The notes under the pieces: generated by a model | What the model saw: the letters and a program-made list of their open reading frames with translations, nothing else | The model's database searches: none | Told to the model about the DNA's origin: nothing | Source of the DNA: a virus | Reading direction: 5' to 3' (one strand) | IMG/VR virus record: IMGVR_UViG_3300012929_000018 | Span: 18,503-82,502 of that record | Length of the DNA: 64,000 nucleotides | In this document: in pieces, positions 18,851-55,304 of the stretch | How the letters are laid out: each line of letters begins with the position of its first letter | Numbering within the stretch: the stretch's first letter is position 1 | Translations under genes and position numbers: made by a program

Positions 18851-19111
18851 ATGCGCTTTATACTACTGTTCTTATTGCTGGTCTCACGCTTGACTTACGC
18901 CGGTGATACCTACGACTGCATCAACTCGAAGGGTGACTACATCAATTACGGACCGCCCGCACCGCCGCGGAACACCTCAATCGTTGGCGCGATCGATTCC
19001 CGCCGATACGACCGGTGGCTCCCGATGTTGAGCCAAGAAGATGAACGCCGCCTGCTGTTTATACAGGCTGCTCGACTGCGCGAATACGCCATTCTTTATG
19101 CCAACCCCTGA
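18851..19111 (+). CDS. 86-aa secreted hypothetical protein
   Basis: MRFILLFLLLVSRLTYAGD is a signal peptide with likely cleavage after TYA. The mature part holds one Cys, a Pro-rich turn (YGPPAPPRN) and ends YANP. The ATG lies five bases after the tRNA CCA, so the gene may be co-transcribed with the tRNA. Function is unknown. Confidence 0.6.
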   Translation: MRFILLFLLLVSRLTYAGDTYDCINSKGDYINYGPPAPPRNTSIVGAIDSRRYDRWLPMLSQEDERRLLFIQAARLREYAILYANP

Positions 19112-19340
19112 ACAACGCGATGAAGGCCGCCCCTGTGATTGGGAGCCAGAAGAACACGACCCGATTATGGTGGCCGCAATCAAGCGGCTTACTGATGAAG
19201 TTCAGCGATTGAAGCGTGAGGAACGCGAGAAGGCCATCAATGCCGTCTCGGAACAATGCACCTGCACCGCCCTTTTCACGAACGCCTTATGCCCAATTCA
19301 CGGCCCAGCGTTCACTCGCCACCTCGAAAATAGAAAGTAA
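19098..19340 (+). CDS. 80-aa Cys-containing protein
   Basis: MPTPEQRDEGRPCDWEPEEH begins an acidic protein with a helical middle (LTDEVQRLKREEREKAINAV) and a C-terminal CTCTALFTNALCPIH cluster that could bind zinc. The start overlaps the end of the preceding gene by 14 bases, the same style as neighbouring genes. Unrecognised. Confidence 0.55.
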   Translation: MPTPEQRDEGRPCDWEPEEHDPIMVAAIKRLTDEVQRLKREEREKAINAVSEQCTCTALFTNALCPIHGPAFTRHLENRK

Positions 19341-19342
19341 CT

Positions 19343-19603
19343 ATGCCCTCCCTCGTATCCGTATCCGAAGCAACCCGAGCCATTCAAAGCCCGTTGTTGC
19401 GCGCCATTGAAACCGTCGTCTCCGAAGAGATTGAAAAAGTCATCGAAGACGCGAAACGCAAAGTCGAGCAGAGAGTTCGCGGTGAAGTCGGTGCCATAGC
19501 CGCCCGTGTCCTTGAGAAGTTCAGCTTCGAGAGGCTGGGGCAGGAGTTAGTGATTCGTGTTGAATTCCCTGGCGCTAAGAGTAAGCTGCCGGGTGATCTG
19601 TAA
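19343..19603 (+). CDS. 86-aa helical hypothetical protein
   Basis: The product is mostly charged helix (VVSEEIEKVIEDAKRKVEQR) followed by LEKFSFERLGQELVIRV and a Pro/Lys tail. It follows the previous stop by two bases. A coiled-coil adaptor role is possible; no family is recognised. Confidence 0.55.
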   Translation: MPSLVSVSEATRAIQSPLLRAIETVVSEEIEKVIEDAKRKVEQRVRGEVGAIAARVLEKFSFERLGQELVIRVEFPGAKSKLPGDL

Positions 19604-19811
19604 ACCCGTAACCCCGATCCTCGAATGCCCGGTTTGTCCGGCGACGTGGGATCTGGGAAAGGTAGGAGTTCGCGGGCTCGATTATCAAGTGCCGATGCAT
19701 GTCCGAGTTCAATTTCGGGCACCGGCGATTCTCTGCGCGGGCTCGCACAAGAAGCTTCCGCTAACCTTTTACGACGCCGCGCCGTTGTCTCATGGCGAGC
19801 CACTGGCCTAA
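19593..19811 (+). CDS. 72-aa possible zinc-ribbon protein
   Basis: A GTG start overlapping the previous gene gives VICKPVTPILECPVCPATWD, with Cys pairs suited to a small zinc ribbon, and LCAGSHKKL later. The alternative ATG at 19557 sits well inside the previous gene. Composition after the ribbon is ordinary, so this call is moderate. Confidence 0.4.
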   Translation: MICKPVTPILECPVCPATWDLGKVGVRGLDYQVPMHVRVQFRAPAILCAGSHKKLPLTFYDAAPLSHGEPLA

Positions 19812-19887
19812 CCGCCGGTGCGTGAACTGAGACAAGTTGGCTCCCTACGTTGGAGAGCGACTTTCTGTCTCACTGGCGATTAAGGTG

Positions 19888-19958
19888 TGACCGTAGCTCA
19901 ATTGGCAGAGCCCTCGGTTGTGGACCTTGAGGTGCGAGTTCGATCCTCGTCGGTCACC
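19888..19958 (+). tRNA. tRNA-His (GTG) with weak anticodon stem
   Basis: Acceptor GTGACCG/CGGTCAC is perfect, the D-arm is GCTCAATTGGCAGAGC, the T-arm GCGAGTTCGATCCTCGT, and the anticodon loop TTGTGGA gives GTG. The five-pair anticodon stem is poor: only the two loop-proximal G-C pairs and the closing C-G form normally. The base before the acceptor is T rather than the encoded G(-1) that bacterial tRNA-His normally carries. CCA is absent. Confidence 0.75.
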
Positions 19959-19970
19959 CCTTAGTCGCTC

Positions 19971-20008
19971 ACCTTCGGGTTTTTATAGGAAAAAATTTTT
20001 TAACCTCC
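19971..20008. repeat. A/T-tract terminator-like element, copy 1 of 3
   Basis: ACCTTCGGGTTTTTATAGG is followed by a six-A, six-T tract. Related elements lie at 32861-32890 and 36793-36823. Each lies 3' of a gene or tRNA and combines a CC-T-run-GG core with an A/T tract. It probably terminates the tRNA-His transcript. Confidence 0.55.
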
Positions 20009-20102
20009 CCTCATCACCTACACACCTGCACGTGCGGGGGCCCGCGGGGGTAGGGGTGGGTCTGCTTCTGGGAGCAGGCATAAGCGCGCTCGCGTGATGC
20101 CT

Positions 20103-20115
20103 GCGCATAATGCGC
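20103..20115 (+). promoter_or_regulatory. GCGCATAATGCGC palindrome, copy 1 of 7
   Basis: A perfect palindrome about one central A, containing CATAAT, which resembles a -10 box. It ends 13 bases before an ATG and is followed by GGGAG. The same palindrome recurs upstream of six other genes up to 36.9 kb. Confidence 0.65.
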
Positions 20116-20128
20116 GGGAGATGGTCGA

Positions 20129-20671
20129 ATGAAAATCACACGAACAAGTCCATCGCTCAAACAATCGAACATCAATCACGTGTGCGAGAGCGCACGTATG
20201 CACGGTCGAACACGCTCGCCTCATTGGAGTTGGAACGCCGAAGCAGAAGTCAATTCCCTACGGGAAAACCGGCACGATTTCAGAATGCCGAAGGCATTAG
20301 ACCGGAAAGCCCAAGGCAAATGGGTGAACGAATACACGCCTAAGGTGCAGCCCTGCGACGGTGTAACCGTGACGCCTGTAAAGGGAAACAGGGTTGCATG
20401 GCTGAGTGAGGAACAAACTAAACGTTTCAAAATCACAATCACGAATGACGCAGGCGTTGAAGAACAGGCACGCATGAGCATGAAATTCACCACCTTAGCA
20501 ATTCTTACTTACGGAAAAGTAGTAGAATTTGTTCGCTGCCACCGCGGCGTAAACGTGCGTGACATGCGCACAGACACGCTCAGATCACCCGCGTATGTCA
20601 CCGCTGAAATTCGCCGCTTAATTCCGGTTAATGCGGAACAAGCGATTGAGCAGCTATTCGCGACTGAATAG
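20129..20671 (+). CDS. 180-aa hypothetical protein
   Basis: A basic N-terminal half (ESARMHGRTRSPHWSWNAEA) is followed by a more ordered region (GVTVTPVKGNRVAWLSEEQ, MSMKFTTLAILTYGKVVEFV). A GGGAGATGG Shine-Dalgarno-like stretch links it to the palindrome upstream. I do not recognise the family; DNA or RNA binding is possible given the charge. Confidence 0.55.
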   Translation: MKITRTSPSLKQSNINHVCESARMHGRTRSPHWSWNAEAEVNSLRENRHDFRMPKALDRKAQGKWVNEYTPKVQPCDGVTVTPVKGNRVAWLSEEQTKRFKITITNDAGVEEQARMSMKFTTLAILTYGKVVEFVRCHRGVNVRDMRTDTLRSPAYVTAEIRRLIPVNAEQAIEQLFATE

Positions 20672-20687
20672 CACGCACATCACGCTT

Positions 20688-20700
20688 GCGCATAATGCGT
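20688..20700 (+). promoter_or_regulatory. GCGCATAATGCGT palindrome, copy 2 of 7
   Basis: The last base is T instead of C; the rest matches copy 1. It is followed by GTGAAGAAAG and an ATG 15 bases after the palindrome. Confidence 0.6.
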
Positions 20701-20715
20701 GTGAAGAAAGTAACC

Positions 20716-20850
20716 ATGAAAAACAAATTATCTGAAATCCTGTTCGATCTGAGTGAGCGCCTGCCTAAATGCCTGAACGCATTAGCGTGGACGCTCGACC
20801 GTGTGAGCCGCGCTATGGTAGCGAATAGCGTTGACTCAATCGGACTTTGA
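20716..20850 (+). CDS. 44-aa hypothetical protein
   Basis: MKNKLSEILFDLSERLPKCL starts a short helical protein ending DSIGL. A GAAGAAAG ribosome site lies at good spacing, directly after the palindrome. Its size makes it a possible host-takeover peptide, by context only. Confidence 0.5.
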   Translation: MKNKLSEILFDLSERLPKCLNALAWTLDRVSRAMVANSVDSIGL

Positions 20851-20860
20851 CTGTCACACG

Positions 20861-20905
20861 CCTTCGAGCGCAGCGCGCTATGTGTGCGCATAATGCGCTC
20901 GAAGG
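20861..20905. repeat. 11-bp inverted repeat enclosing palindrome copy 3
   Basis: CCTTCGAGCGC and GCGCTCGAAGG are perfect inverted repeats separated by 23 bases. The second arm shares its first four bases with the palindrome at 20886. As RNA it would form a long hairpin over the putative ribosome site of the next frame, so the site may be attenuated. This flank is not seen at the other six palindromes. Confidence 0.7.
20886..20898 (+). promoter_or_regulatory. GCGCATAATGCGC palindrome, copy 3 of 7
   Basis: A perfect copy, followed by TCGAAGGAA and a GTG codon 10 bases after the palindrome. Confidence 0.6.
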
Positions 20906-20907
20906 AA

Positions 20908-20961
20908 GTGACCGCCAGTCGGTTGCTCGGAAATGAGCGAAGCAGAGTAGCGAGTGAATGA
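20908..20961 (+). CDS. Possible 17-aa leader peptide
   Basis: The GTG frame VTASRLLGNERSRVASE ends in an ATGA overlap with the next short frame. The GAAGGAA ribosome-like site and the coupling are the only support; it may be spurious. Confidence 0.25.
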   Translation: MTASRLLGNERSRVASE

Positions 20962-21077
20962 AAGCGGGTAGTCGCATGAGTCGCCACAGCGTCAATCTCA
21001 TGTGTAAGCTGCGAATAGCTCGTGAGGGTAGCTACAAGCGTGTTCTAGTCCGGAAAATTAACCATCCGGTTTCGTAA
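20958..21077 (+). CDS. 39-aa basic hypothetical protein
   Basis: MKAGSRMSRHSVNLMCKLRI continues to NHPVS and is strongly basic. It starts in an ATGA overlap with the leader frame. Short length makes it tentative. Confidence 0.35.
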   Translation: MKAGSRMSRHSVNLMCKLRIAREGSYKRVLVRKINHPVS

Positions 21078-21386
21078 GGGTGTTCAATGATGCTACACCC
21101 ACGGTGAGGCCCGAACAAACGGGTGCGTAGAAGCGAGTTGGCTCTCGTGGAACGCATCACGCAAAAGCCTGATCGTCGGATATTAAAAACCAAATTCAAC
21201 ACGCATACGAGTGACGCGACGTTATTCGTAGATGGCTGCGCGACGCAGCTATCAGCGTGCAGCCCTGTGGCCCTGCTACAATGTTCCAGAATACGCGTGA
21301 TGCGTAGGACGGCAGCATTTCAGGGACACTAGCCAGTGCATCTCACACGTGACGTGTGACGTGTTACAGGGTTGCAATCTGATACC
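21078..21386. other. Segment without a clear gene
   Basis: A 69-codon frame at 21123 has unconvincing composition. The stretch holds small hairpins (GCTGCGCGACGCAGC near 21236; TCACACGTGACGTGTGA near 21341) and a copy of the interspersed GCAGCCCTG motif. It may be leader or structured RNA. Confidence 0.4.
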
Positions 21387-21815
21387 ATGAGTGATTTAAC
21401 CATTCAAGCGAACGGTCAGGCTCTAACGCTCGGAAACTTCGGCGGGGTCACTAAACCCGACTTCCGAACGAAAAACGCGAAGGAGTATCTGTCCGCGCAT
21501 TTCGGTGTCACTGTAGTCAAAGGCATGAAAATGCCTGACGTGAAAGCGGCTGTCCTCGCGACGGGCGTTACGGAAGCGAATTTCAAACTCGCCCGTAAAA
21601 CCTACGACGGGAACAAGCAACAGTATCACGTCGAGTGCCGCAAAGTGACGGCGCTTCTCGCGGCTGACCCGAATTATCGGCAGTCCATTCGCAAGATGAA
21701 AACGGGTGCGGTTGTGACGTTCCGTAAAATCGGGGCCGTTGCTGCCAAGCAATCTGCCGCCGCCCGTATCGCGCAGTTGGAAGCGAAGCTCGCAGCGGCG
21801 GGCATCGCGGCCTAA
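21387..21815 (+). CDS. 142-aa hypothetical protein
   Basis: MSDLTIQANGQALTLGNFGG begins a basic Ala/Lys-rich protein with KPDFRTKNAKEYLSAHFGVT and a C-terminal helix QSAAARIAQLEAKLAAAG. The ATG here is preferred over an upstream TTG. A DNA-binding role is possible from the basic pattern and short helix. It is directly followed by the hairpin-rich region. Confidence 0.55.
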   Translation: MSDLTIQANGQALTLGNFGGVTKPDFRTKNAKEYLSAHFGVTVVKGMKMPDVKAAVLATGVTEANFKLARKTYDGNKQQYHVECRKVTALLAADPNYRQSIRKMKTGAVVTFRKIGAVAAKQSAAARIAQLEAKLAAAGIAA

Positions 21816-22226
21816 TCGCGTCGGCGCGACTTCGGAGTGTGAATGTCTGTGGGTGCGCAAGCGCCCACAGCAATTCGCTCTCACCTAAGGTGAACAGCTA
21901 GGCATACGCTATGAAAACAGTGCGGCTTTAGGGAACGATAGCGAAGAAAAGTGGCGAAGCGTAAATCGGGTTGGCCCGTAAAGCCTAACGATCAGGCGCG
22001 CGCAAGTCGCACCCCGCGACTAGGCCCCAAACGGCGAAAGCACGTTGCAACGTGCCCGCTGCGTTGGTCAGCGGCGGGTGTGCGGCGCATGTTGAGTGCT
22101 CAGTCAGGCTGGGTGGAAGTAGGCGCGTGAACATGACGCGCGCTGAGAAGCGGCGGGCCAAAAGCTCGCAAAATAGGCCCATGCTGCCGCGCGGTGGCAT
22201 GTGACGCACCCGGCCTGACTGCGCAC
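21816..22226 (+). ncRNA. Candidate large structured RNA
   Basis: No good ORF is present, while at least nine hairpins follow one another: 21847-21870, 21881-21893, 21967-21978, 21983-21997, 22005-22021, 22040-22055 (GCACGTTGCAACGTGC), and 22056-22074. A 13-pair helix (22101-22113 with 22209-22221, one G-U) closes a junction holding hairpins 22123-22141, 22155-22180 and 22180-22201. It lies between tRNA-bearing segments, a setting where large phage RNAs such as GOLLD and ROOL occur. The strand is assumed from its neighbours. No family match could be tested. Confidence 0.5.
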
Positions 22227-22326
22227 AAGCGTAGTAGATGTGATTTCGGTTACAGCTAGTTCTTTGAATTACAACTAAGATTACGTTCTCACTGGCACGC
22301 TGGCTCTGCCTAAACCAGCACAATTT

Positions 22327-22521
22327 ATGAACCATGCAATGACACCACGCGAAAACTATCGCCCTTATACGCCTGCGGAAATCCAGGCTATTCGTGCGGC
22401 CGGGCGCATCACGCGCGCCGCGCGATGGGACTGCGCCAACCTCGAACAAAGGATGGAAATGCACCCTGAATTGAACCCGAACAAGCGGTGGTTTGAGCAG
22501 AAGGCGTGGAAACTACTATGA
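22327..22521 (+). CDS. 64-aa basic hypothetical protein
   Basis: MNHAMTPRENYRPYTPAEIQ starts an Arg-rich protein with AIRAAGRITRAARWDCANLE, possibly a small helical nucleic-acid binder. It ends in an ATGA overlap with the next gene. The TTTATGAAC-type start recurs in this block. Confidence 0.5.
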   Translation: MNHAMTPRENYRPYTPAEIQAIRAAGRITRAARWDCANLEQRMEMHPELNPNKRWFEQKAWKLL

Positions 22522-22718
22522 CCATCGAAGTAAAACGAGACGGAAAGACGGTCTGCACGATCATCAAAGGCTCGGGCAGAATTAGCAGCGACAAGCTGAA
22601 ATTGCTCGCGATCAGATATAACGCGGGCCATTTAAGCACTTTCAACGATATGCGCGAGGTAGTTCGACAGGCGAAAGTCATTCGCTTGGAGAAAGCTCTC
22701 GCGGTAATGTGCGCATAA
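22518..22718 (+). CDS. 66-aa hypothetical protein
   Basis: A beta-hairpin-like start (MTIEVKRDGKTVCTIIKGSG) is followed by basic helices ending ALAVMCA. Its last codons lie within palindrome copy 4, so the palindrome is partly coding here. Unrecognised. Confidence 0.5.
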   Translation: MTIEVKRDGKTVCTIIKGSGRISSDKLKLLAIRYNAGHLSTFNDMREVVRQAKVIRLEKALAVMCA

Positions 22719-22723
22719 TGCGC
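22711..22723 (+). promoter_or_regulatory. GCGCATAATGCGC palindrome, copy 4 of 7
   Basis: A perfect copy spanning the stop codon of the preceding gene. The following ATG lies 32 bases away, more than at other copies, with GAAAGGAAACC just before it. Confidence 0.6.
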
Positions 22724-22755
22724 GCGAAGCAGATAACCAACAACGAAAGGAAACC

Positions 22756-22947
22756 ATGAAACACACCATCACACTGACAAAGGACAAAGAGACGAAGAAC
22801 AAAATTCGTTTCTCGAACGAACCCACCGACGCGATTAGCGGAAGCTTATACATCGCGAAGGAACTCGTCGGCAACGTGAATGCGATTCAGTTCGCAATCG
22901 AGTTGCCCGAGGTTGCGGTGACTGCTCCGACTCCGGTCGAAGCGTAG
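22756..22947 (+). CDS. 63-aa hypothetical protein
   Basis: MKHTITLTKDKETKNKIRFS and the later ISGSLYIAKELVGN suggest a small beta-rich fold like single-strand-binding-type mini proteins, but I cannot assign it. A good GAAAGGAAACC ribosome site precedes it. It is the last gene before the tRNA cluster. Confidence 0.55.
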   Translation: MKHTITLTKDKETKNKIRFSNEPTDAISGSLYIAKELVGNVNAIQFAIELPEVAVTAPTPVEA

Positions 22948-22997
22948 TTGATACGCAGCGCCCCGTGTGATAACGTGGGCGTTGCAATCAGTTACGT

Positions 22998-23073
22998 TGT
23001 AAGGTAGCTCAGTTGGTAGAGCAGGCGCCTGTTAAGCGCCGCGTCGTAGGTTCGACTCCTACCCTTACAGCCA
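22998..23073 (+). tRNA. tRNA-Asn (GTT), CCA encoded
   Basis: Perfect acceptor TGTAAGG/CCTTACA, D-arm GCTCAGTTGGTAGAGC, anticodon arm GGCGC-CTGTTAA-GCGCC giving GTT, T-arm GTAGGTTCGACTCCTAC, discriminator G and encoded CCA. Confidence 0.95.
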
Positions 23074-23077
23074 ACAC

Positions 23078-23148
23078 ACAGGGGGCGAAGGCAGTAGCGC
23101 GAACTCCAAATCCGCGTGTGATGAGTTCGATTCTCATACCCTGTGCCA
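23078..23148 (+). tRNA. tRNA-Trp-like (CCA anticodon) with shortened D-arm
   Basis: Acceptor ACAGGGG/ACCCTGT (last pair G-A), T-arm ATGAGTTCGATTCTCAT, discriminator G and encoded CCA are normal. The anticodon loop CTCCAAA gives CCA (Trp). Only 14 bases separate acceptor and anticodon stem instead of about 19, so the D-arm is cut down, and the anticodon stem GCGAA/TCCGC has one A-C mismatch. It begins four bases after tRNA-Asn. Confidence 0.6.
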
Positions 23149-23176
23149 CTTTTTGACTAGGTTGGTTGCGCAACAA

Positions 23177-23268
23177 TGACCTGCACCTTGCATCGCGGTA
23201 GCCGTTGCAGCGGTGGAACGAAGTAAGAGCGTTGTTGTCGATGGTCCGATTCCATCGCTGGTCACCCA
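23177..23268 (+). other. 92-nt tRNA-like element
   Basis: The 3' half resembles a tRNA: an acceptor strand CTGGTCA pairs with TGACCTG (one mismatch), a six-pair T-stem encloses TCCGATT, and CCA is encoded. The hairpin AACG...CGTT would be a long variable arm. No seven-base loop with T33 and an adequate stem is seen, so no anticodon can be assigned. It may be a decayed tRNA or a tRNA mimic. Confidence 0.35.
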
Positions 23269-36886: not shown

Positions 36887-37102
36887 ATGAAGATTGAGAT
36901 TTACAAGACAGCACTGTGTCGTGGATGCTTTAGCCGAGCGGCCATACTTCAAGTGCTGTATGAACCACATGATGTGCCATCTACAGGCATGTCCTTTTGG
37001 TTCTCGACCGTGCCTCGCGATCAAGGGGATGTGCTTGCCATCAACAAGCAGGCAGAGACCATCGCAGATCGGGTGAACGCGGAACGAGATGGAACAATAT
37101 GA
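36887..37102 (+). CDS. 71-aa hypothetical protein
   Basis: MKIEIYKTALCRGCFSRAAI contains a CxxC pair and the later FWFSTVPRDQGDVLAIN. It overlaps the next gene by four bases. A small ribbon or thioredoxin-like mini fold is possible, but I cannot assign it. Confidence 0.5.
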   Translation: MKIEIYKTALCRGCFSRAAILQVLYEPHDVPSTGMSFWFSTVPRDQGDVLAINKQAETIADRVNAERDGTI

Positions 37103-37803
37103 ACTACCTAAGCGTTGGCGTAGACGCCAAGACAAAGAAAGGTGAGAAGCAAGGATACCTCACAGGTATTCTTTACATGGCCCCGGCACAGGTGGCAGGC
37201 GGACGTAACATGTGTCCGTTCTCCACGGCGGGGTGTCGAGCGGTGTGCCTTTACACGGCAGGCCGCGGCGGTTTCAACAGCGTGCAAGAGGCGCGCATCA
37301 GGAAGACGTTGGAGTTCCAGACGAACCCCGACGAGTTCTGCAAGCTCATCATCGAGGACATTGTGTCGCTCGTGAAGAAGGCAGCGAAGCAGGATATGAT
37401 TCCGGCGGTGCGGCTCAACGGCACGACTGACATTGAGTGGGAGAAGTATGGTATCATGGAACAGTTCCCTGACCTACAGTTTTACGACTACACGAAGTGG
37501 CCGTGCGGTAGGCGAATGGGTATTCCATCGAACTACCATCTGACCTATTCGTTTAGCGAAAGTCCGAAGGCGGAACTCAATGCGATCGGTTGGAAGATAC
37601 GTGGGTTCAACACAGCGGCGGTGTTCGCTGGTGGGTTGCCGACTCACTTCAAGATAGGCGAGACGGGCGTGCCCGTGATCGACGGTGACCTTAGTGATCT
37701 TAGGTTCCTCGACCCGAAGGGTGTCGTCGTAGGTCTCAAGACCAAGGGCAAAGCCCGCGGTGTAGTAGATGCTGGCACGGGCTTCGTGCAGAAAGGAATA
37801 TAA
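37099..37803 (+). CDS. Conserved phage protein (DUF7227-like)
   Basis: The 234-residue product has GGRNMCPFSTAGCRAVCLYT near residue 35, AVRLNGTTDIEWEKYG, FPDLQFYDYTKWP and GDLSDLRFLDPKGVVVGLKT. This combination is recurrent in environmental phages and is listed, as far as I recall, under DUF7227. The conserved Cys trio suggests a metal or redox site. Function is unknown. Confidence 0.65.
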   Translation: MNYLSVGVDAKTKKGEKQGYLTGILYMAPAQVAGGRNMCPFSTAGCRAVCLYTAGRGGFNSVQEARIRKTLEFQTNPDEFCKLIIEDIVSLVKKAAKQDMIPAVRLNGTTDIEWEKYGIMEQFPDLQFYDYTKWPCGRRMGIPSNYHLTYSFSESPKAELNAIGWKIRGFNTAAVFAGGLPTHFKIGETGVPVIDGDLSDLRFLDPKGVVVGLKTKGKARGVVDAGTGFVQKGI

Positions 37804-39379: not shown

Positions 39380-40098
39380 GGCACAACGCGTGGAGTTGCG
39401 ACCTGCAGCCCTGCGACCCTGCATCCAAGTTCTCGGGCTACCATTTGCTGGGCAACGCGATCACGGCTGCATGCCAGCCTTGGACGTTCCCATCGCTGCC
39501 GACCGTAGTGATGGGGCCGTGGTGGGATCTGTTGATCGCGCACCCACCTTGCACCTACCTATGCAACAGTGGGGTGCGGTGGTTGTTCCGCGATACTCAG
39601 CCATTCGTCAGTTCTTTGACCCGCTCGTGCAATACACGCATCGCAACAACGATGGGTATGGTTACTCGCAAGGGGAAGTTCACACGCCCAGCCAACCGCA
39701 CGCGGGTAGCATTGATGCATGACGCAGGGACGCTGTTCCGCATACTCTACAATCAAAGCTACATCGCACACATCGCAGTCGAGAATCCGATCATGCACAG
39801 CTACGGCAAGCATGCGTGCGGCGTCGGCAAACCGTCACAGGTAATCCAGCCGTGGATGTTCGGGCACTCGGAGAACAAGGCGACCTGCTTGTGGTTGAAG
39901 AACCTGCCGAAGTTGACTTACGACAAACAGAATGCGGAGTTCACTAAGAACATGATGGTTTACTTGCCGAAGAAGATGACCAATCGCATCCACTATACGA
40001 GCCCCGGCCCCGAGCGGGCGAAGCTGCGGTCCAAGACTTACCCCGGAATTGCGCTTGCAATGGCGACGCAGTGGTCCGACTATATTCAAAGCTTATGA
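39307..40098 (+). CDS. Cytosine-specific DNA methyltransferase-like protein
   Basis: The 263-residue protein starts MGRQLNVLIACEESGAVRDA, a SAM-loop-like strand found in C5-methyltransferase relatives. DLLIAHPPCTYLCNSGVRW carries the PPC nucleophile loop (PPCT rather than PPCQ), and IAVENPIMHS carries the ENP motif. The C-terminal half is short and the recognition domain is not clear. It may protect phage DNA or hypermodify it; activity is unproven. Confidence 0.7.
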   Translation: MGRQLNVLIACEESGAVRDAFRELGHNAWSCDLQPCDPASKFSGYHLLGNAITAACQPWTFPSLPTVVMGPWWDLLIAHPPCTYLCNSGVRWLFRDTQPFVSSLTRSCNTRIATTMGMVTRKGKFTRPANRTRVALMHDAGTLFRILYNQSYIAHIAVENPIMHSYGKHACGVGKPSQVIQPWMFGHSENKATCLWLKNLPKLTYDKQNAEFTKNMMVYLPKKMTNRIHYTSPGPERAKLRSKTYPGIALAMATQWSDYIQSL

Positions 40099-47327: not shown

Positions 47328-50300
47328 TTATTGGAAGTCCGACAGCTTCGGCTTCTTCGCATTCTTATGCAGCAGTTTCACCAACGCCGAATCGGATACT
47401 TTCATCTGGCTCAGCGTCGAGCGCAGCAAGTTCGCATTTGTTTTATGATCTGCCTGCGCTTCGTTGTAAACCTTTCTTTGATCTGCGGTCAACGCATGCA
47501 AGAACAGCTTCTCCGTATCGGCCTTGCCCGAGAACTTCTCCGGCGCAATCCCACCGTGGGTAATACCCACAGCCTTCTTGATCTGCTCCTCGGTCGCACC
47601 GCGGGCGGCTAGCAGTTCAATCTCCGATTTGACTGCACTGGTGTTGCGGTTGTCGAGGGCTGATCGCAGGTCACGATAGACCGGCGGGCTGTTGTCACCA
47701 TAGCTCTTGTCATCACGGAAGCGATGGGCCAGCGCGAACATCTCACCACGCGGCGTCTGCGACGCATTCAGTTTGAAGCCCGCGGATTGAAACAAAGTCT
47801 TTTCCCACGCCGCCGGTTGCCGGGTGACGCGAAAGCCGAGCAACTGTCGGGGGTCACGCTCGACGGCTGCGCCTGCCAGTGGTGGCAACGGGATGAGGGA
47901 TTCCAAAGCAGCCTTCGCCCGGTCGGTGCTATTGGCAAACCGCTTGCCGGAGTAGTCGCGGTTGAGCAGAGTGTTGACTGCGCCATGCGCCACGGGGTTC
48001 AGCTTATTAAAGAGGATGCGCTGCGCAATGTCGAGCGGTTCCATGTGCTGCGAGCGATAGCGGTATGCCATGAAGGCGTATTCAGAACCAATCTCAAGTG
48101 GGTTGAACTCGAACTCGCCGCGCCCACCGATCTGTGGGATGTGCAGCGCGAACCAATCGCCCTTCTTATTTTGGAAAGTAGAGTGCCCGTTCATGGCGAG
48201 GCTCATCACCTGCATGGCGACGAACGTGCCGAGAACGGCCGTGATCTGCCCCTGCGCCACGACGCCGAGCCGCGCCTTGCCTTGGAGCAAGTCGATCGGT
48301 GCCCTGAGAAGCTGCCCGTAGCCGCGGAACTCTTGGGTTAGCTGACTCTCGGCCCACTGTGGCGCGAGCAATAAGGACCGCAGCATGTTCTGAGTCTGAG
48401 GATTCTTGAACACGGATTGCAGTTGAAGGTTACCGAAAATTTCATTGGTCTCTTTGGCGGTGCGCCGAAGGATTTCGTCACGGCTGAGTTCGCCGAAGCG
48501 CGATTGATTGCGTTCCAGGTTCGCGAGTGCCGTCTGTAGCATGGCCCCGCGGCTCAGTTTTTTGAACACCCACGAGTTGAACCCATTCAGGTAGGGCGCG
48601 AGATATTTCGTCAGTTCCGCGTCCATGTTGTCAGAAATCTTGGCGACGTTGAGGCCGCTACGGATGAGCGACTGCGCATTCTCGTAGTGCGTCAGCGCGT
48701 AGTCATGCTGCTCTTTGCTAATGTCGCCTAGCGCGAGCGCCTTAGCCAAGTCCGGCTTGGAGTATTCGAGGATCGACAGACCTTTGCCGTAGCCGAAGCG
48801 AGCCGCGCCCTTTGAGAACGCCGCTTCCTTGAACATGATTCGGCCCACGTGGAAGGTATCGAGAACCAAAGTGTTTCGCTTCATGAATCCCGCCCACTTG
48901 TTGAGGGCGTTGCGCTGGCTGTCGCCGTAGATCGCCTTGAACAGAGGCACGTAGTCCTCGTGCACGACGAGCGGCGCGCCACTCGGCACGTTCACCAGAC
49001 GGTAGCCTTTCGGCACAGCCTTTTCCTCACCGTGATAAAGCGTTGTGCGAGTGTCCATGGTGTCGATGATGGGTTTGCCATCCGGCGCCAACACTGACCG
49101 CAATGATTCGTGGTAAATTTTTTGCTGAATCAAACGCTCGCCTGCCTCGATGCGGTGTGCATCCAGTTCGGCAATATCGAGAGTCTTGGGTGTGAACCCG
49201 GCCGCGATTGCATCGGACAAAGTTTCAAACGAACGAGCTTTAGTGAAGTAACGAAGTCCGCCCTTGCCGTCCGGCACAGCAAACATATCGTTCTCGCTCA
49301 CATCAGGGCTCTTCAAAATTCGCGTCACGTAGTCTTCCAAAAGCGGAGTGTCAATACCGTAGGTGTGTTCGCGGTCGGCAATGTCTTTCATCGCCTGCGT
49401 GTGTGCCTCTTTACCTACGAGCTTATCGAAATTTTCAATGGCGTGGTCATAGAGGGGCAGGTATTTCTTGCCAGACTCTGCACCGTTGGCGATCTGATCG
49501 CGGCCAATCTCGAGCCGTTGCAGGTCTTTGCCATGGTCGATGATGAGAGTTGAGGCAGAACGATCCTGCATGACTTCCTTGCCTGGTTTTGCCACGCTGC
49601 CGTAATCCTGCGCCACACGATTTGAACCTTGTTCCGCTAGGATTCGAGGAATGTTGTTTGCCGAGTTCGCTCCGGCCACCACGATTTCCTTGCCGCTGTC
49701 TTTGAGTCGCGCCACGTTGCCGGTGATTGGGTTCTTAACTTGGAATCGCTCGACTAGCGTTGGCTCTTGCAGCCTCGCTGAGATAGTCAGTTGATCCTTG
49801 AGGGCGCTCTTAGTTGCGGGTGACGAACCTGTGTCGTCGTCGATCTGTTTGCTGAGTGCCTCGACCTGCGCCTTGTTCGGAACGCCTTCGATTGAGATGT
49901 TGCGCTTGCCGCCAACGCGTTGTGCATATTTGATCTTGGCCTGCTCATCTTCCTCGGGGGCTGGCTCAGTTGCGGTGCCGCGCGGCTCGGAGAATCCTAG
50001 CGCGTCAGCGCCGCCTTGAAGATGTGCGGGACGATACAACTCCTTGAGGGAGTTCCGAGGATCGCCGGTCTCGCGATCGTGAATTAGAGTGCGTCCGTTA
50101 TCCTGCGCATGGTTCATCAGCAGCTTCTCACCGGCGGTGTTACCACGCTTACCGGTGAAGTAGGTGTTCGTGTTGTCGTGCAGCACACGCAGGAAGCCGC
50201 GGGCCTCTAAGAAATCTTTAACGTCACCTTCGGACATATCCAAGACAGAGCCGTAGCCTTTGTCCTTAGCTGCCTGATCGAAGGCGGAAGCGAGTTCAGG

Positions 50301-53300
50301 TTTGGACTGAATGTATTCCCACGCGGCGCTGCCGTGGCTGCCGTGTCCGCCGAACACCAATGGGTTGACGCCAGCGGTCAGACCTTGGTGAAAACGTTCG
50401 TCGATGGGCAGGAACTTTCCTTCCGGCGTGACCCAGCCGTTGCCTTCAACATGATTCAAAAGATTGAGCACCGGCTTCCGTGCCTCGCCGGTCAACTGCG
50501 GTTCTTCTGCTGGCGGCTCTTCGTCGCCCGCGATTTCCGCATTCAACTCCTCTTGAGTCATGCCGGTTTTGCTTTCATCGGCCTGACGTGCGTTGACTTC
50601 GGCCAGCTTGGCCCGGCCTTCGGCGGTGAATGTCTCGGGTGCTGAGGCCAGACCGATACGTTTGAAGTCGGCGGTGATTTCCTCACGGCGCTTCTCGTAT
50701 TCCTTCATCACATCGAAGCCCTTGCCTTGGCGCTTAGCTTCTGCTTGAGCTTCGGCGTATGCTTGCTTGTTGATCTTGCTGCGCTCAGCGCGGTTGAGTC
50801 CTTGCTTATCCTTGATCTTATTCAGATCCGGCTTGTATTCCTTACCTTTGTTGGCCTCGTCGAAAAGCTTTTGCATTTCCTTCTTAGCTTCCTCGGCCCC
50901 TTGGAATTTAATATTCTCCTGCCGGGCGCGCTCCACCACAATTTCACGCACCGTTTGTTGCGCCTTACCTTCTTTGATTAGAGTGAACATGTTATCGAGA
51001 GCTGCGCGCAGTGGCGAGGTAGAAGTGATTTCCTTTCCGCCTAACAGAGTCATGATTGCGCTTTTGACTTTGTCTAGGATGTGCTCGAACTTCGACTTAC
51101 CAAGTGCTTCTCCTTTTTGCCATCCAACAGTAGCATCCTCAAGTCGAACTGGTTCTGAGTGCTCGAGATTATTCAGGAAGTTTTGGAACTCAGGATTGGT
51201 CAACGCCTCGGTAACAAATTCGTGAAGGTTGGATAAGCCGTAGTATAGTCGGCCAAGATTATCTGGATGCTCGTAGCGTCCGTATTGAGCGTCTTGAAAA
51301 TCTGCCAACTCTTTTGCAGACTCAGGTAGCCGACCTTTAGCCCGTTCAAAAATGATATTTGAAATGTTGTCGTGCAGCTTACTCAACACATCATAAGCTC
51401 GTTGTTCAGCCGGATTGCGCTTGGCATCCGGCTCTAGTTTAGCGTCCAAGATTCCGTGGACTAGTTCATGCATGAAGGTAGTTTTGATTCCACCAAGATG
51501 CCGACCGCCCGCGAGATTAAACTCCATCGTGTCGGATGTGTGCCAGTATCGACCGCCGTAACGCTCGTTCGGGTTAGACACAATCTTAATACGAATGTGG
51601 GATAGATCGAAGCCGGAGCTTTGAATTAGCTTGGCAACCTCACGCATGAAAGCTGGGGTTTTAGGATCGGCGATAACGTGATCAAGCGTGTCATTGAGAC
51701 TGATCCGCGTTCTTCCCTCGTGTTGTATAAGACCCATATCGTCGGCTTCATCCGTCTGCTCTTTTACGATCTTTGCGTCAACTCTACCTGAAAGTTTTCT
51801 GAGAAATTGCTCCGTTTCCTCTATCACACCAATCTCAGTCTTAGGCCCTTCTTCGGGAGCTGAATCATACTGAATAGCATCATCCGGTATACCGCGATCT
51901 TCCGACTCCTGTCGAACGGCTTCGTTGATTGCTTCGAGTTTGTCACCCACTGCGATGTGCGCGTGAGCCTTGCCGAATGCATCCTGCTCTTGGCGAAGCT
52001 GCGTATAGGAACGCTGCTGCTCCCCAGCCCTGACGCCCTGACTCCCTAAAGCTTCTTCATGAGATAATTGCACCCGGCCCAGCGAGGTATCAACGTCACC
52101 GACGTAGTATTGCTTGGCTTCGGGGTCCCATTTCATATGGTCGCTGATCGCGGGGTTGACCTTCTCGTCATCGAGTAGCGCGTCGGGAATGTAAAGTCGG
52201 TTGCCTGCGTCATTGCTGAATAGACCTTGGTCTTTCTGCTGCGCAGTTATGTCGGGATCGTTAGTGAACTGCGGGCGAGTGCGAGTAACACCGTCGGCGT
52301 CCTTCGTCTCGATCATCGGCAGTTCTTCCTTCGTGTAATCGTGCTCGATGTTCGTAACCTTCGAGCCTTCGGGAACGGCTTCCGGCGGGTATGCGCGTTC
52401 CAGTTCCTTCTGCAAATTGGCGCGCAAGTCCTGAGCGGACGTAATATCCATGGCCGGATGCGCTTCTTGAATCTCGTCGAGGCTCGGCACCACGCCACGT
52501 TTGATCGTGTCGCCGGTGATCTGGGCCTTGGCTTCCGCCATACCTGGGGCTTCGGCGCGCGCTTCTTTGCGCTTGGCGGATGCAGCCTGTTGCTCGGCGC
52601 GGTGGGCAGCCTTGTTCGCTGCGCTGCGCTCGGCGCGGGTCGCACCTTCGCCAGCCTTGGGAATTTCCGGCGCGGGTTTGGACCTAGCCGCTTTCAGCAA
52701 TTCAGCGCGGCGCGCGTTGTATGCCGCCGTAACATCAAAATCTTTTCCCCGGCCTGACTTGCGCTTCATGTCCTGTGCGTCGGCGTATGCTTGCTTATTC
52801 AGCGCGCTCATCTCTGGCGTCTCTAACTTACGCTCAGTCACAGAACCGCGAGGTTCAGTGCCAGCAAACTTGTCGCGCAGTTCGATGCGTCGTTCCAGAA
52901 GATCGTGGAGCGAGGCGTTAGTCGGAACTTCAAAGGTAGCGCCGTGTGACGGAGAACGTGGGTCAATCTCGGTGAACTGTTCGCCAACCATTCCACGGCC
53001 ATCGTAGGTCAGGTCTTTCAGGTTGCCGTTGTTGATTGCCTCAACTGCTTCCTTGGCCACCGGAGTCTTGGGTTGAGGATTGCGTTCGGCGATACGTGCC
53101 TTGTGCTGCTCGTTCTGAGCTTCACGGGCGGCGACTTCATCCGGCGCAACTTCGGTGGCAGACGCGCGAGGTTCTTGCGGAACCGGCGACTCCTTGATCG
53201 TAACGTCGTTAGCTTTCAGTTTCTCACGGACTCCGGCCAATGCTTCGGCGGGAGTCATCGTGCTCGATTTGCGAAATTGTAAATCTCTGATGAGCGGGTG

Positions 53301-55304
53301 ATCGCTCGCTATTGTGTTTTGTTTGAAAGCTTCGTAGACCGCGCCCACATCCCTGCCTGCTTTGAGTGAGGAAATTAAAGATTTGATCGCGCCCTGTTCA
53401 CGCTCGTTAGGTCGGTTGTCTGTGGTCTCGGTGACCTTTCTGCTTGAAGCGCCGCGTGTAAAGATTCCATCTTGGCCCTTAGTATAGGTTACGCCTTTGA
53501 TGACTTTGGTTTCAGCAGGCTTCTCCACGCTAGTAACGTGGCTTGGGCCGAACTTCAACTCTAACTTGGCGTCAGGCTCGACTGCCGACTTGGGAGCAAA
53601 TGCTTTTTCTTTCTCGGCGATTGCTTCGTCGAGTTGGCGGTGAAATTCATTAGCTTCCGCGGAGTCCTTCGGATAGCTTGCGTCGACTTCTTTCTTGGCC
53701 GCCTGCAAATCTGCAACCTCAGCACCGGCTGGGATTTCAATCTTCGGTGTGCGATCGCCGCTGGTATCCGTTTCAAATCCCAAAGTCACTTCCTTGGCAG
53801 CAGCGGGGGCTTCGACTTTCTTGCCGCCCTTAGTTTCAATCGTGACCTTGCCGGTTTTCATCTGAGTCGTGCCTTCTGGCAACGGCTGGTTGGCTTGATC
53901 CTGCATCACCTTGGCGACTTCGGGCGAGTCCGCGGCTTGCGCTTGATCGGCGGCCGCTTGTGCAACATCTTTGCTCACCTGCGCTTTGGCTTGTGCCTTG
54001 TCGGGTTCGGAAACCTTAACACCCAATGTAGGTTTGCCCGCCTCACTCGCCGAGTGCATAGAAGCGTAAACTAAATTGAAAGCCTCGGTGGACGGGTCAG
54101 TCGCTTCGGTGAAAGCGCCTACAGCCTTAGCAACCTTCTCACCGGCGGGTGCGGTAGCCGCAGCTTCGACGGCTTTGTTGATTCGAGAACTGGTTTCGTT
54201 AGCCGTAGCACCGCCCATGAAATGCGAGAGATACTTAGTCATCACGGTCGCGCCTTGAGGCAGCAACTTAGCAACACCTAACGCAGCGAGCTTGGACATT
54301 CCGCCGAACACAGCCATACCCAAAGCAGAACGCACAGCAGTTTGCTCGGCTTCTTTATCCGACAAACCAGCGGCCTTTGCATCGGCCTCGGCTGCAGCGC
54401 CAGCGTGAAGAATGACTAATGGAAGTGCGACGATACCTTCGGCGGCCATTGCCGTGCCTGAGCCAGCACCGCGAGCCATTGTCGCAGGGATTGTTTCAGT
54501 CAAGCCGGGATCGACAGCAGATTCTTTCGGCGCCGTTTTCACACGGTTAGCCCAGTAATCGGCGGCATCCTTCGCCATGCTTGGACCGGAAACTCCTGTG
54601 ACGCCCATAGCGGCGTTGGCTTCCTTGCCCATCTGATCGAGGATGTTCGCCCCGCCCGACAAGCCTTTGAAAATAAATTGCCCTGCATCCGTGCCGAACT
54701 CTCGCATGGCATTGAGGGTCTGGTGACCGACACCGTAATCAACCTCGGGAGTTTTGTCGAGGTAATAAGCGTGAGCAATATCAGGGCCTAAGGGCTGCAG
54801 TTTCGCACGCACGTCTGCCTTCGAAAGTTTAGTCGAGTCACCGACAGCAGCGTCAGCGATCTTCACGCGAGCTTGGTCGGGTGTGATTCCACCAGCGGCG
54901 GCACTCAATTCGTTTTGTCGAAGGGCCGCGCCCTTATTGAAAGCGTCTTTGACCGTGCCCCAATCTGGGTGGTCCTGCAACATATTGTAGGTCGAGTCGT
55001 GCCAGCGCGAGAACGCAACAAGCTGTTTCTCAGGGGTCGCAGCTTTATATTCAGGAGTCGCGGTCACATCGTTCCATGTCGGATGATCTTCGGCTGGGGC
55101 CTCGGCAGCCTGCGGGGCGGGCGGAACTGAGACCTGAGTGATTGATGGCGGCGGCGCTGCATTCGCATTCACCGGCGCGGCGGGCGGCTGCGGCTGTTGC
55201 GGCGGGGCGTCAACGCGAGCGTTGACCTGACTTTGAAGGGTATCGAGCCCCTGCTCTAACTCAGCAGTGCGCTCAGTAATCGGATCGGCCATGTTAAGGG
55301 ACAA
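47328..55304 (-). CDS. 2658-aa large polyvalent virion-type protein with zincin domain
   Basis: A single uninterrupted frame. The N-terminus is Gln/Pro-rich. Residues about 270-340 include hydrophobic Ala/Gly segments (VALPLVILHAGAAAEADAKA). Many Lys/Glu/Ala-rich coiled regions follow. A metallopeptidase site HELVHG lies at H1279-H1283, with HEFVTEALTNPEF further on as a likely third ligand region. The C-terminal 700 residues hold ordered segments (WAGFMKRNTLVLDTFHVGRI, QWAESQLTQEFRGYG, IGGRGEFEFNPLEIG). This resembles large polyvalent proteins that phages inject with their DNA to condition the host. Exact domain borders need profile searches. Confidence 0.7.
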   Translation of the reverse strand: MSLNMADPITERTAELEQGLDTLQSQVNARVDAPPQQPQPPAAPVNANAAPPPSITQVSVPPAPQAAEAPAEDHPTWNDVTATPEYKAATPEKQLVAFSRWHDSTYNMLQDHPDWGTVKDAFNKGAALRQNELSAAAGGITPDQARVKIADAAVGDSTKLSKADVRAKLQPLGPDIAHAYYLDKTPEVDYGVGHQTLNAMREFGTDAGQFIFKGLSGGANILDQMGKEANAAMGVTGVSGPSMAKDAADYWANRVKTAPKESAVDPGLTETIPATMARGAGSGTAMAAEGIVALPLVILHAGAAAEADAKAAGLSDKEAEQTAVRSALGMAVFGGMSKLAALGVAKLLPQGATVMTKYLSHFMGGATANETSSRINKAVEAAATAPAGEKVAKAVGAFTEATDPSTEAFNLVYASMHSASEAGKPTLGVKVSEPDKAQAKAQVSKDVAQAAADQAQAADSPEVAKVMQDQANQPLPEGTTQMKTGKVTIETKGGKKVEAPAAAKEVTLGFETDTSGDRTPKIEIPAGAEVADLQAAKKEVDASYPKDSAEANEFHRQLDEAIAEKEKAFAPKSAVEPDAKLELKFGPSHVTSVEKPAETKVIKGVTYTKGQDGIFTRGASSRKVTETTDNRPNEREQGAIKSLISSLKAGRDVGAVYEAFKQNTIASDHPLIRDLQFRKSSTMTPAEALAGVREKLKANDVTIKESPVPQEPRASATEVAPDEVAAREAQNEQHKARIAERNPQPKTPVAKEAVEAINNGNLKDLTYDGRGMVGEQFTEIDPRSPSHGATFEVPTNASLHDLLERRIELRDKFAGTEPRGSVTERKLETPEMSALNKQAYADAQDMKRKSGRGKDFDVTAAYNARRAELLKAARSKPAPEIPKAGEGATRAERSAANKAAHRAEQQAASAKRKEARAEAPGMAEAKAQITGDTIKRGVVPSLDEIQEAHPAMDITSAQDLRANLQKELERAYPPEAVPEGSKVTNIEHDYTKEELPMIETKDADGVTRTRPQFTNDPDITAQQKDQGLFSNDAGNRLYIPDALLDDEKVNPAISDHMKWDPEAKQYYVGDVDTSLGRVQLSHEEALGSQGVRAGEQQRSYTQLRQEQDAFGKAHAHIAVGDKLEAINEAVRQESEDRGIPDDAIQYDSAPEEGPKTEIGVIEETEQFLRKLSGRVDAKIVKEQTDEADDMGLIQHEGRTRISLNDTLDHVIADPKTPAFMREVAKLIQSSGFDLSHIRIKIVSNPNERYGGRYWHTSDTMEFNLAGGRHLGGIKTTFMHELVHGILDAKLEPDAKRNPAEQRAYDVLSKLHDNISNIIFERAKGRLPESAKELADFQDAQYGRYEHPDNLGRLYYGLSNLHEFVTEALTNPEFQNFLNNLEHSEPVRLEDATVGWQKGEALGKSKFEHILDKVKSAIMTLLGGKEITSTSPLRAALDNMFTLIKEGKAQQTVREIVVERARQENIKFQGAEEAKKEMQKLFDEANKGKEYKPDLNKIKDKQGLNRAERSKINKQAYAEAQAEAKRQGKGFDVMKEYEKRREEITADFKRIGLASAPETFTAEGRAKLAEVNARQADESKTGMTQEELNAEIAGDEEPPAEEPQLTGEARKPVLNLLNHVEGNGWVTPEGKFLPIDERFHQGLTAGVNPLVFGGHGSHGSAAWEYIQSKPELASAFDQAAKDKGYGSVLDMSEGDVKDFLEARGFLRVLHDNTNTYFTGKRGNTAGEKLLMNHAQDNGRTLIHDRETGDPRNSLKELYRPAHLQGGADALGFSEPRGTATEPAPEEDEQAKIKYAQRVGGKRNISIEGVPNKAQVEALSKQIDDDTGSSPATKSALKDQLTISARLQEPTLVERFQVKNPITGNVARLKDSGKEIVVAGANSANNIPRILAEQGSNRVAQDYGSVAKPGKEVMQDRSASTLIIDHGKDLQRLEIGRDQIANGAESGKKYLPLYDHAIENFDKLVGKEAHTQAMKDIADREHTYGIDTPLLEDYVTRILKSPDVSENDMFAVPDGKGGLRYFTKARSFETLSDAIAAGFTPKTLDIAELDAHRIEAGERLIQQKIYHESLRSVLAPDGKPIIDTMDTRTTLYHGEEKAVPKGYRLVNVPSGAPLVVHEDYVPLFKAIYGDSQRNALNKWAGFMKRNTLVLDTFHVGRIMFKEAAFSKGAARFGYGKGLSILEYSKPDLAKALALGDISKEQHDYALTHYENAQSLIRSGLNVAKISDNMDAELTKYLAPYLNGFNSWVFKKLSRGAMLQTALANLERNQSRFGELSRDEILRRTAKETNEIFGNLQLQSVFKNPQTQNMLRSLLLAPQWAESQLTQEFRGYGQLLRAPIDLLQGKARLGVVAQGQITAVLGTFVAMQVMSLAMNGHSTFQNKKGDWFALHIPQIGGRGEFEFNPLEIGSEYAFMAYRYRSQHMEPLDIAQRILFNKLNPVAHGAVNTLLNRDYSGKRFANSTDRAKAALESLIPLPPLAGAAVERDPRQLLGFRVTRQPAAWEKTLFQSAGFKLNASQTPRGEMFALAHRFRDDKSYGDNSPPVYRDLRSALDNRNTSAVKSEIELLAARGATEEQIKKAVGITHGGIAPEKFSGKADTEKLFLHALTADQRKVYNEAQADHKTNANLLRSTLSQMKVSDSALVKLLHKNAKKPKLSDFQ

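Follow-up and report, generated by a model that had tools for sequence, protein, structure and literature searches.

A gene-free stretch of 425 nt in the genome of a tailed phage (positions 21816-22240) is real and noncoding, and it is more structured than its base composition would give. Our leading explanation, which we hold with slightly less than even confidence, is that it serves as the sense-strand template of a structured noncoding RNA that is encoded by the phage, specific to its lineage and possibly working with the adjacent protein. In partial support of it, coding signal is absent, stems are in excess, the fold is strand-specific, and two related phages show a comparable arrangement of gene-free, structured sequence. 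The initial annotation had proposed a large undescribed structured RNA at this place: the stretch is indeed noncoding, strongly and strand-specifically structured and, at the sensitivity used, outside every Rfam 15 family; the RNA itself is a candidate, with no sequence homologue found in IMG/VR, phage or plasmid records.

Source phage and its relatives

The analysed DNA, a window of 64,000 nt to which all positions refer unless stated otherwise, corresponds to bases 18503-82502 of an 82.5-kb virus contig. Its genes include those for a family-A DNA polymerase, a DNA helicase-exonuclease fusion, an ATP-dependent DNA ligase and RIIA/RIIB-like proteins, which identify the virus as a tailed phage. 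In a collection of 50,697 phage records, no relative was detected by megablast (window positions 1-25000) or by tblastn with portal or primase, and relatives were obtained from IMG/VR only. With terminases that are 53-60% identical, these comprised G009 (82 kb), G024 (79 kb), G023 (52 kb) and the fragments G016, G017 and G019; G020, G021, G022, G025 and G026 are more distant. A scan of genome contigs returned distant terminase relatives only. The two assemblies that carry them bear the labels Verrucomicrobia and Spartobacteria, a hint at the host group. A primase scan gave no match.

A noncoding stretch rich in hairpins

Codon usage rules out a coding explanation for either strand of positions 21816-22240. 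All ORFs of at least 25 aa within 21816-22326, on both strands, received negative codon-usage log-odds (-1.6 to -21.8); the same scoring gave +35.9 for the ORF immediately upstream of 21816. Counting perfect stems of at least six pairs with at most one G-U, we found seven hairpins in the 425 nt, compared to a mean of 2.31 in dinucleotide shuffles, only one of which (out of 200) reached seven. The annotated picture of some 400 bases that lack a convincing ORF and hold clustered short stems is borne out by both measures. GNRA loops accounted for 7 of the 77 hairpin loops in the candidate stretches, versus 14 of 470 in controls.

Within the stretch lies a closed multibranch domain (Table 1) that none of 200 shuffles equalled in stability (z = -6.05) and whose MFE structure is identical to the centroid. 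Its closing helix, originally described as 13 pairs (22101-22113 with 22209-22221), proved real and extends to 15 pairs including one G-U (22101-22115 with 22207-22221), with a further extension formed by 22096-22099 and 22223-22226. The three-hairpin multibranch junction seen at first reading was likewise recovered, the MFE structure containing three stable inner hairpins (22123-22141, 22153-22169 and 22180-22201) plus a doubtful one of three pairs (22142-22151). Stems of at least 13 pairs within about 200 nt are scarce: the 82.5-kb contig has only five, the 15-pair helix among them and one located at a tRNA, and shuffled genomes have zero or one.

Folded as + strand RNA, the 425-nt stretch has a z-score of -4.5, compared to -2.1 for the - strand RNA. 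The greater stability of the sense RNA favours an RNA over a DNA hairpin element. All candidate stretches of the three phages compared below lean to the sense strand, each lying within or near the tail of its own genome's spread. By itself, the z-score is not decisive, since the whole genome folds strongly: windows of 425 nt average -1.0 (sd 1.7), scores of -4.5 to -5.6 occur in several of them, and 21816-22240 shows nothing remarkable when examined in 200-nt windows. Energy per nucleotide is more discriminating, with -0.472 for 21816-22240 against a genome mean of -0.348 (sd 0.036), which, among this phage's 425-nt windows, lies beyond the first percentile. In the relatives, whose stretches are longer than the windows used for this comparison, G024 is beyond the first percentile as well (-0.395 over 1080 nt) and G009 is in the top 5%.

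The strong background folding, with several windows equal to 21816-22240, would suit a stretch devoid of function, that is, a hypervariable island, poor in genes and rich in GC, whose predicted folds arise as a side effect of composition and genome-wide strong folding; so would the absence of sequence- or structure-level conservation in local alignment, Sankoff alignment and covariance-model searches (see below). We nevertheless regard this as distinctly unlikely, given that the stem excess is rare (just 4 of the 411 windows of the 82.5-kb contig reach seven hairpins), that so few stems match the 15-pair helix and that in three phages the small gene or its positional counterpart has a long gene-free stretch next to it.

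Layout of the larger unit

The initial annotation confined the element to 21816-22226. A structured stretch does lie there, but these boundaries are too narrow, and a second gene-free structured stretch (candidate RNA 1) is found upstream. Along the + strand, the palindromic repeat (copy at 20888) is followed by this stretch (~20900-21386), a small protein gene and the reported stretch (candidate RNA 2). Candidate RNA 1 contains a 10-bp hairpin (21231-21253) and is more stable as sense than as antisense; positions 20851-21371 fold with z -4.7, and other limits (39380-39873 of the contig) give z -2.2. The intervening gene encodes a 142-aa protein with a pI of 10.1 and a charge of +12.7 that matched no Pfam or PHROGs family, and its AlphaFold2 model (mean pLDDT 48) was set aside. 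As annotated, the element is located between tRNA-bearing segments, flanked by the genes for tRNA-His and tRNA-Asn. A search of the + strand for terminator-like or sigma-70-like sites found none, a point against our leading explanation.

Table 1 Features of the candidate unit and its flanks
Feature	Position	Strand	Basis or remark
tRNA-His (GTG)	19887-19960	+	upstream of the unit
Palindromic repeat copy TGTGCGCATAATGCGCTCGAAGGAAGTGACC, probable promoter or operator	20869-20913	+	direct-repeat families D1 and D2; putative role
Upstream gene-free structured stretch (candidate RNA 1)	20900-21386	+	no coding signal; folds
Small basic protein gene, 142 aa	21387-21815	+	coding score +35.9; ATG at 21387, stop at 21813-21815
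Reported structured stretch (candidate RNA 2)	21816-22240	+	hairpin count, strand asymmetry, energy, no coding signal
10-bp hairpin (one G-U) with GCAA tetraloop	21847-21870	+	stem census
8-bp perfect hairpin	22055-22078	+	stem census; the 425-nt MFE uses an alternative pairing here
Closed multibranch domain	22094-22228	+	z -6.05, MFE equals centroid; stem census
tRNA-Asn (GTT)	22998-23073	+	downstream of the unit

Two further features were observed around the unit. The gene-free stretch 19604-20128 contains tRNA-His and six hairpins, and given its presence, a longer RNA island may include the structured unit. Positions 23077-23149 look tRNA-like by eye, with a seven-pair acceptor stem (CACAGGG/CCCTGTG), a CCA 3′ end and a CTCCAAA loop with a CCA anticodon; neither ARAGORN nor Rfam calls a tRNA there, and the predicted fold is just partly tRNA-like.

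The palindromic repeat upstream of candidate RNA 1 is likely a phage promoter or operator. The window has seven exact copies of GCATAATGCG, each of them on the + strand, and most copies of the palindromic repeat TGYGCGCATAATGCGCG lie no more than about 150 nt from a start codon. The copy at 20888 is the sole one that leads into a long gene-free stretch rather than to a start codon. Copies of TGYGCGCATAATGCGCGYGAA are present at 20105, 20690, 20888, 22713, 32007, 33561 and 36862 on the + strand, mostly just upstream of early genes. The central stem of the repeat (GCGCA-TAA-TGCGC) resembles hairpin promoters of the kind that N4-type virion RNA polymerases use. A 2658-aa protein (47328-55304, - strand), considered as such a polymerase reading the hairpin repeats, had no match in PHROGs, Pfam or PDB; in relatives, proteins of 1947 and 2461 aa occupy a similar place, at an identity of only about 25%.

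The two stretches pair with each other no more than by chance. A single split RNA into which the protein gene had been inserted is thus unsupported. The same result would agree with both stretches acting in cis, as the leader and trailer (UTRs) of the basic-protein transcript that serve its stability, attenuation or autoregulation by the basic protein, without an independent RNA product. Stretch 1 spans the interval from the promoter-like repeat to the protein's start codon, other repeat copies also sit mostly close to start codons, and the encoded protein is basic, all of which fits such a role. A leader of 480 nt plus a trailer of 430 nt would, however, be long for a phage gene, and it is the trailer that holds the strongest and best-defined fold. 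We consider this cis-acting role unlikely, if far from negligible.

Comparable gene-free stretches in related phages

G024 encodes a homologue of the 142-aa protein (34-35% identity, E 1.8e-10), beyond which neither IMG/VR scans with the protein or its motifs nor tblastn in phage records found another. In G024, ~1.1 kb containing one weakly scoring ORF only precedes the homologous gene, and a gene-free gap of 1080 nt, the longest of this genome, starts 269 nt past it, with a 46-aa ORF between; 981 nt of the gap fold with z -3.7. At the corresponding place, G009 carries a 149-aa gene whose product has a similar C-terminal charged helix. Because BLASTP gives no alignment with the 142-aa protein, we treat this gene as a positional counterpart only. 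Directly before it lie 1330 gene-free nt, again the longest gap of the respective genome, of which 880 nt fold with z -5.0. A long gene-free structured stretch therefore recurs beside the small gene or its positional counterpart in three phages.

Searches for DNA similarity in IMG/VR, phage and plasmid records and the relatives matched only tRNAs and gave no alignable homologue of the stretch. When the candidate stretches of the three phages were aligned locally, scores stayed at shuffle level, or were marginal under lenient settings, and in sparse Sankoff structure-aware pairwise alignment the best real scores did not exceed those of mirrored or random decoys. A single-sequence covariance model of the junction domain found nothing in 564 kb of relatives, retrieving itself only and, weakly, its own antisense. 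This is a counterpoint to our leading explanation: an RNA under strong constraint might be expected to retain some sequence where neighbouring proteins keep 35-65% identity.

One strong match emerged from an all-against-all comparison of the relatives' gene-free gaps, but it is probably coding, as it overlaps an ORF with protein-level matches in relatives. Separately, positions 36997-37803 code for a conserved protein (phrog_1617) whose function is unknown. G009 and G024 encode versions with 59-67% identity, and environmental viruses carry it very commonly, at no fewer than 548 loci.

GC skew near the unit

Along the contig, cumulative GC skew reaches its lowest value at window position 19423 (contig 37925), and the best change-point of third-position skew in the early genes maps to window position ~19530 (block-permutation p below 0.002), 1.3-2.3 kb from the two stretches. 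The region at about 19400-19550 adjoins the gene-free cluster and is a possible replication origin or gene-module boundary. With the skew change-point only ~2 kb away, a transcribed origin or leader region is the main rival to an RNA product.

If it were an origin, the gene-free, G-rich sense stretches would lie at or near it, and their hairpins or an R-loop would serve initiation. In line with this, the change-points of G024, G020 and G026 are also within about 2 kb of these genomes' own large gene-free clusters. The best change-point of G009, however, is weak (p 0.07) and 14 kb away, and the skew changes in the opposite direction in G020 and G026, so that the step may just mark a boundary between gene modules. 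In addition, it is closer to the gap at 19604-20128 than to 21816-22240; positions 19000-23200 are free of iteron-like direct repeats except for the promoter-like motif, which recurs 10-16 kb away; and the fold is strand-specific. A transcribed replication-origin region is thus, in our estimate, improbable.

Proposed mode of action

Sense bias, stem excess, GNRA loops and the tRNA neighbourhood lead us to favour a structured RNA derived from an early transcript. Transcription would most likely start at the palindromic repeat at 20888 and would proceed towards the tRNA genes, crossing stretch 1, the basic-protein gene and stretch 2 on the way. The two stretches are predicted to fold separately and would probably be freed by the same processing that matures the tRNAs. 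The RNA, with the basic protein from the intervening gene possibly bound to it, could then play its part in infection as a stable RNA or ribonucleoprotein, in a manner akin to that proposed for GOLLD and ROOL while standing outside both families.

A bolder version, to which we assign only a small chance, is that the unit represents a large phage RNA of a new class, carried by an uncultured lineage: two structured segments around a basic-protein gene would form an infection-specific ribonucleoprotein that evolves so fast that each phage species has its own version. To our knowledge, large phage RNAs such as GOLLD and ROOL have been discovered through conserved sequence only, and their functions are open. 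If the unit is real, it would be a further, independent large phage RNA, one whose candidate protein partner is encoded within the unit itself and whose phage group has no cultured relatives in the searched collections. The partner protein would offer a direct handle, by pull-down or deletion, on what such RNAs do, and the case would show that they can diverge too far to be discovered by homology.

Relation to known large RNAs

At the gathering threshold, Rfam 15 (covering, among others, HEARO, OLE, raiA, group I/II introns, RNase P and tmRNA) identified only tRNAs. With permissive filters and E up to 10, cmscan of 20850-22350 returned chance matches only, with neither GOLLD nor ROOL among them; the best was Clostridiales-1 on the minus strand (E 0.19; 19.6 bits versus a cut-off of 48). 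The GOLLD covariance model (RF02032; conserved 3′ half) had no match at E up to 10 in the contig itself, G009, G024, G023, G020 or G021. Nor was the ROOL model (RF03087) matched, although control genomes were silent too, so that a divergent relative may be missed. The Infernal search suggested in the initial annotation (GOLLD, ROOL, HEARO and OLE) has thereby been run and matched none of these families, and the affiliation to GOLLD or ROOL, at first left undecided, finds no match in direct searches with either model.

OLE (Ornate Large Extremophilic) RNA is a large structured bacterial RNA that works with proteins encoded close by. Its partnership with nearby proteins loosely parallels the basic-protein gene here. 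However, OLE is encoded on the chromosomes of extremophilic and anaerobic bacteria rather than by phages, whereas the present candidate is phage-borne and matches no Rfam family.

GOLLD and ROOL are large phage RNAs of unknown function that are often found near tRNA islands (PMC12286853). Expression of GOLLD rises during lysis and the RNA forms a 14-mer nanocage (PMC12286853). ROOL, from phages or prophages, is as abundant as 16S rRNA and also forms an RNA nanocage. The candidate unit occupies the same kind of location, a phage contig in which tRNA-His and tRNA-Asn flank it. As neither model matches, the likeness is one of context and size only and we claim no membership. The ROOL covariance model is unmatched here (as it is in the control genomes), and what is shared with ROOL is the phage location near tRNA genes (PMC12286853). 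Unlike in GOLLD, whose model is unmatched as well, a basic-protein gene sits between two structured stretches; like GOLLD, the candidate is multi-hairpin, phage-encoded and close to tRNA genes, and its size falls in a comparable range when either stretch 2 alone or the two stretches together are considered (PMC12286853).
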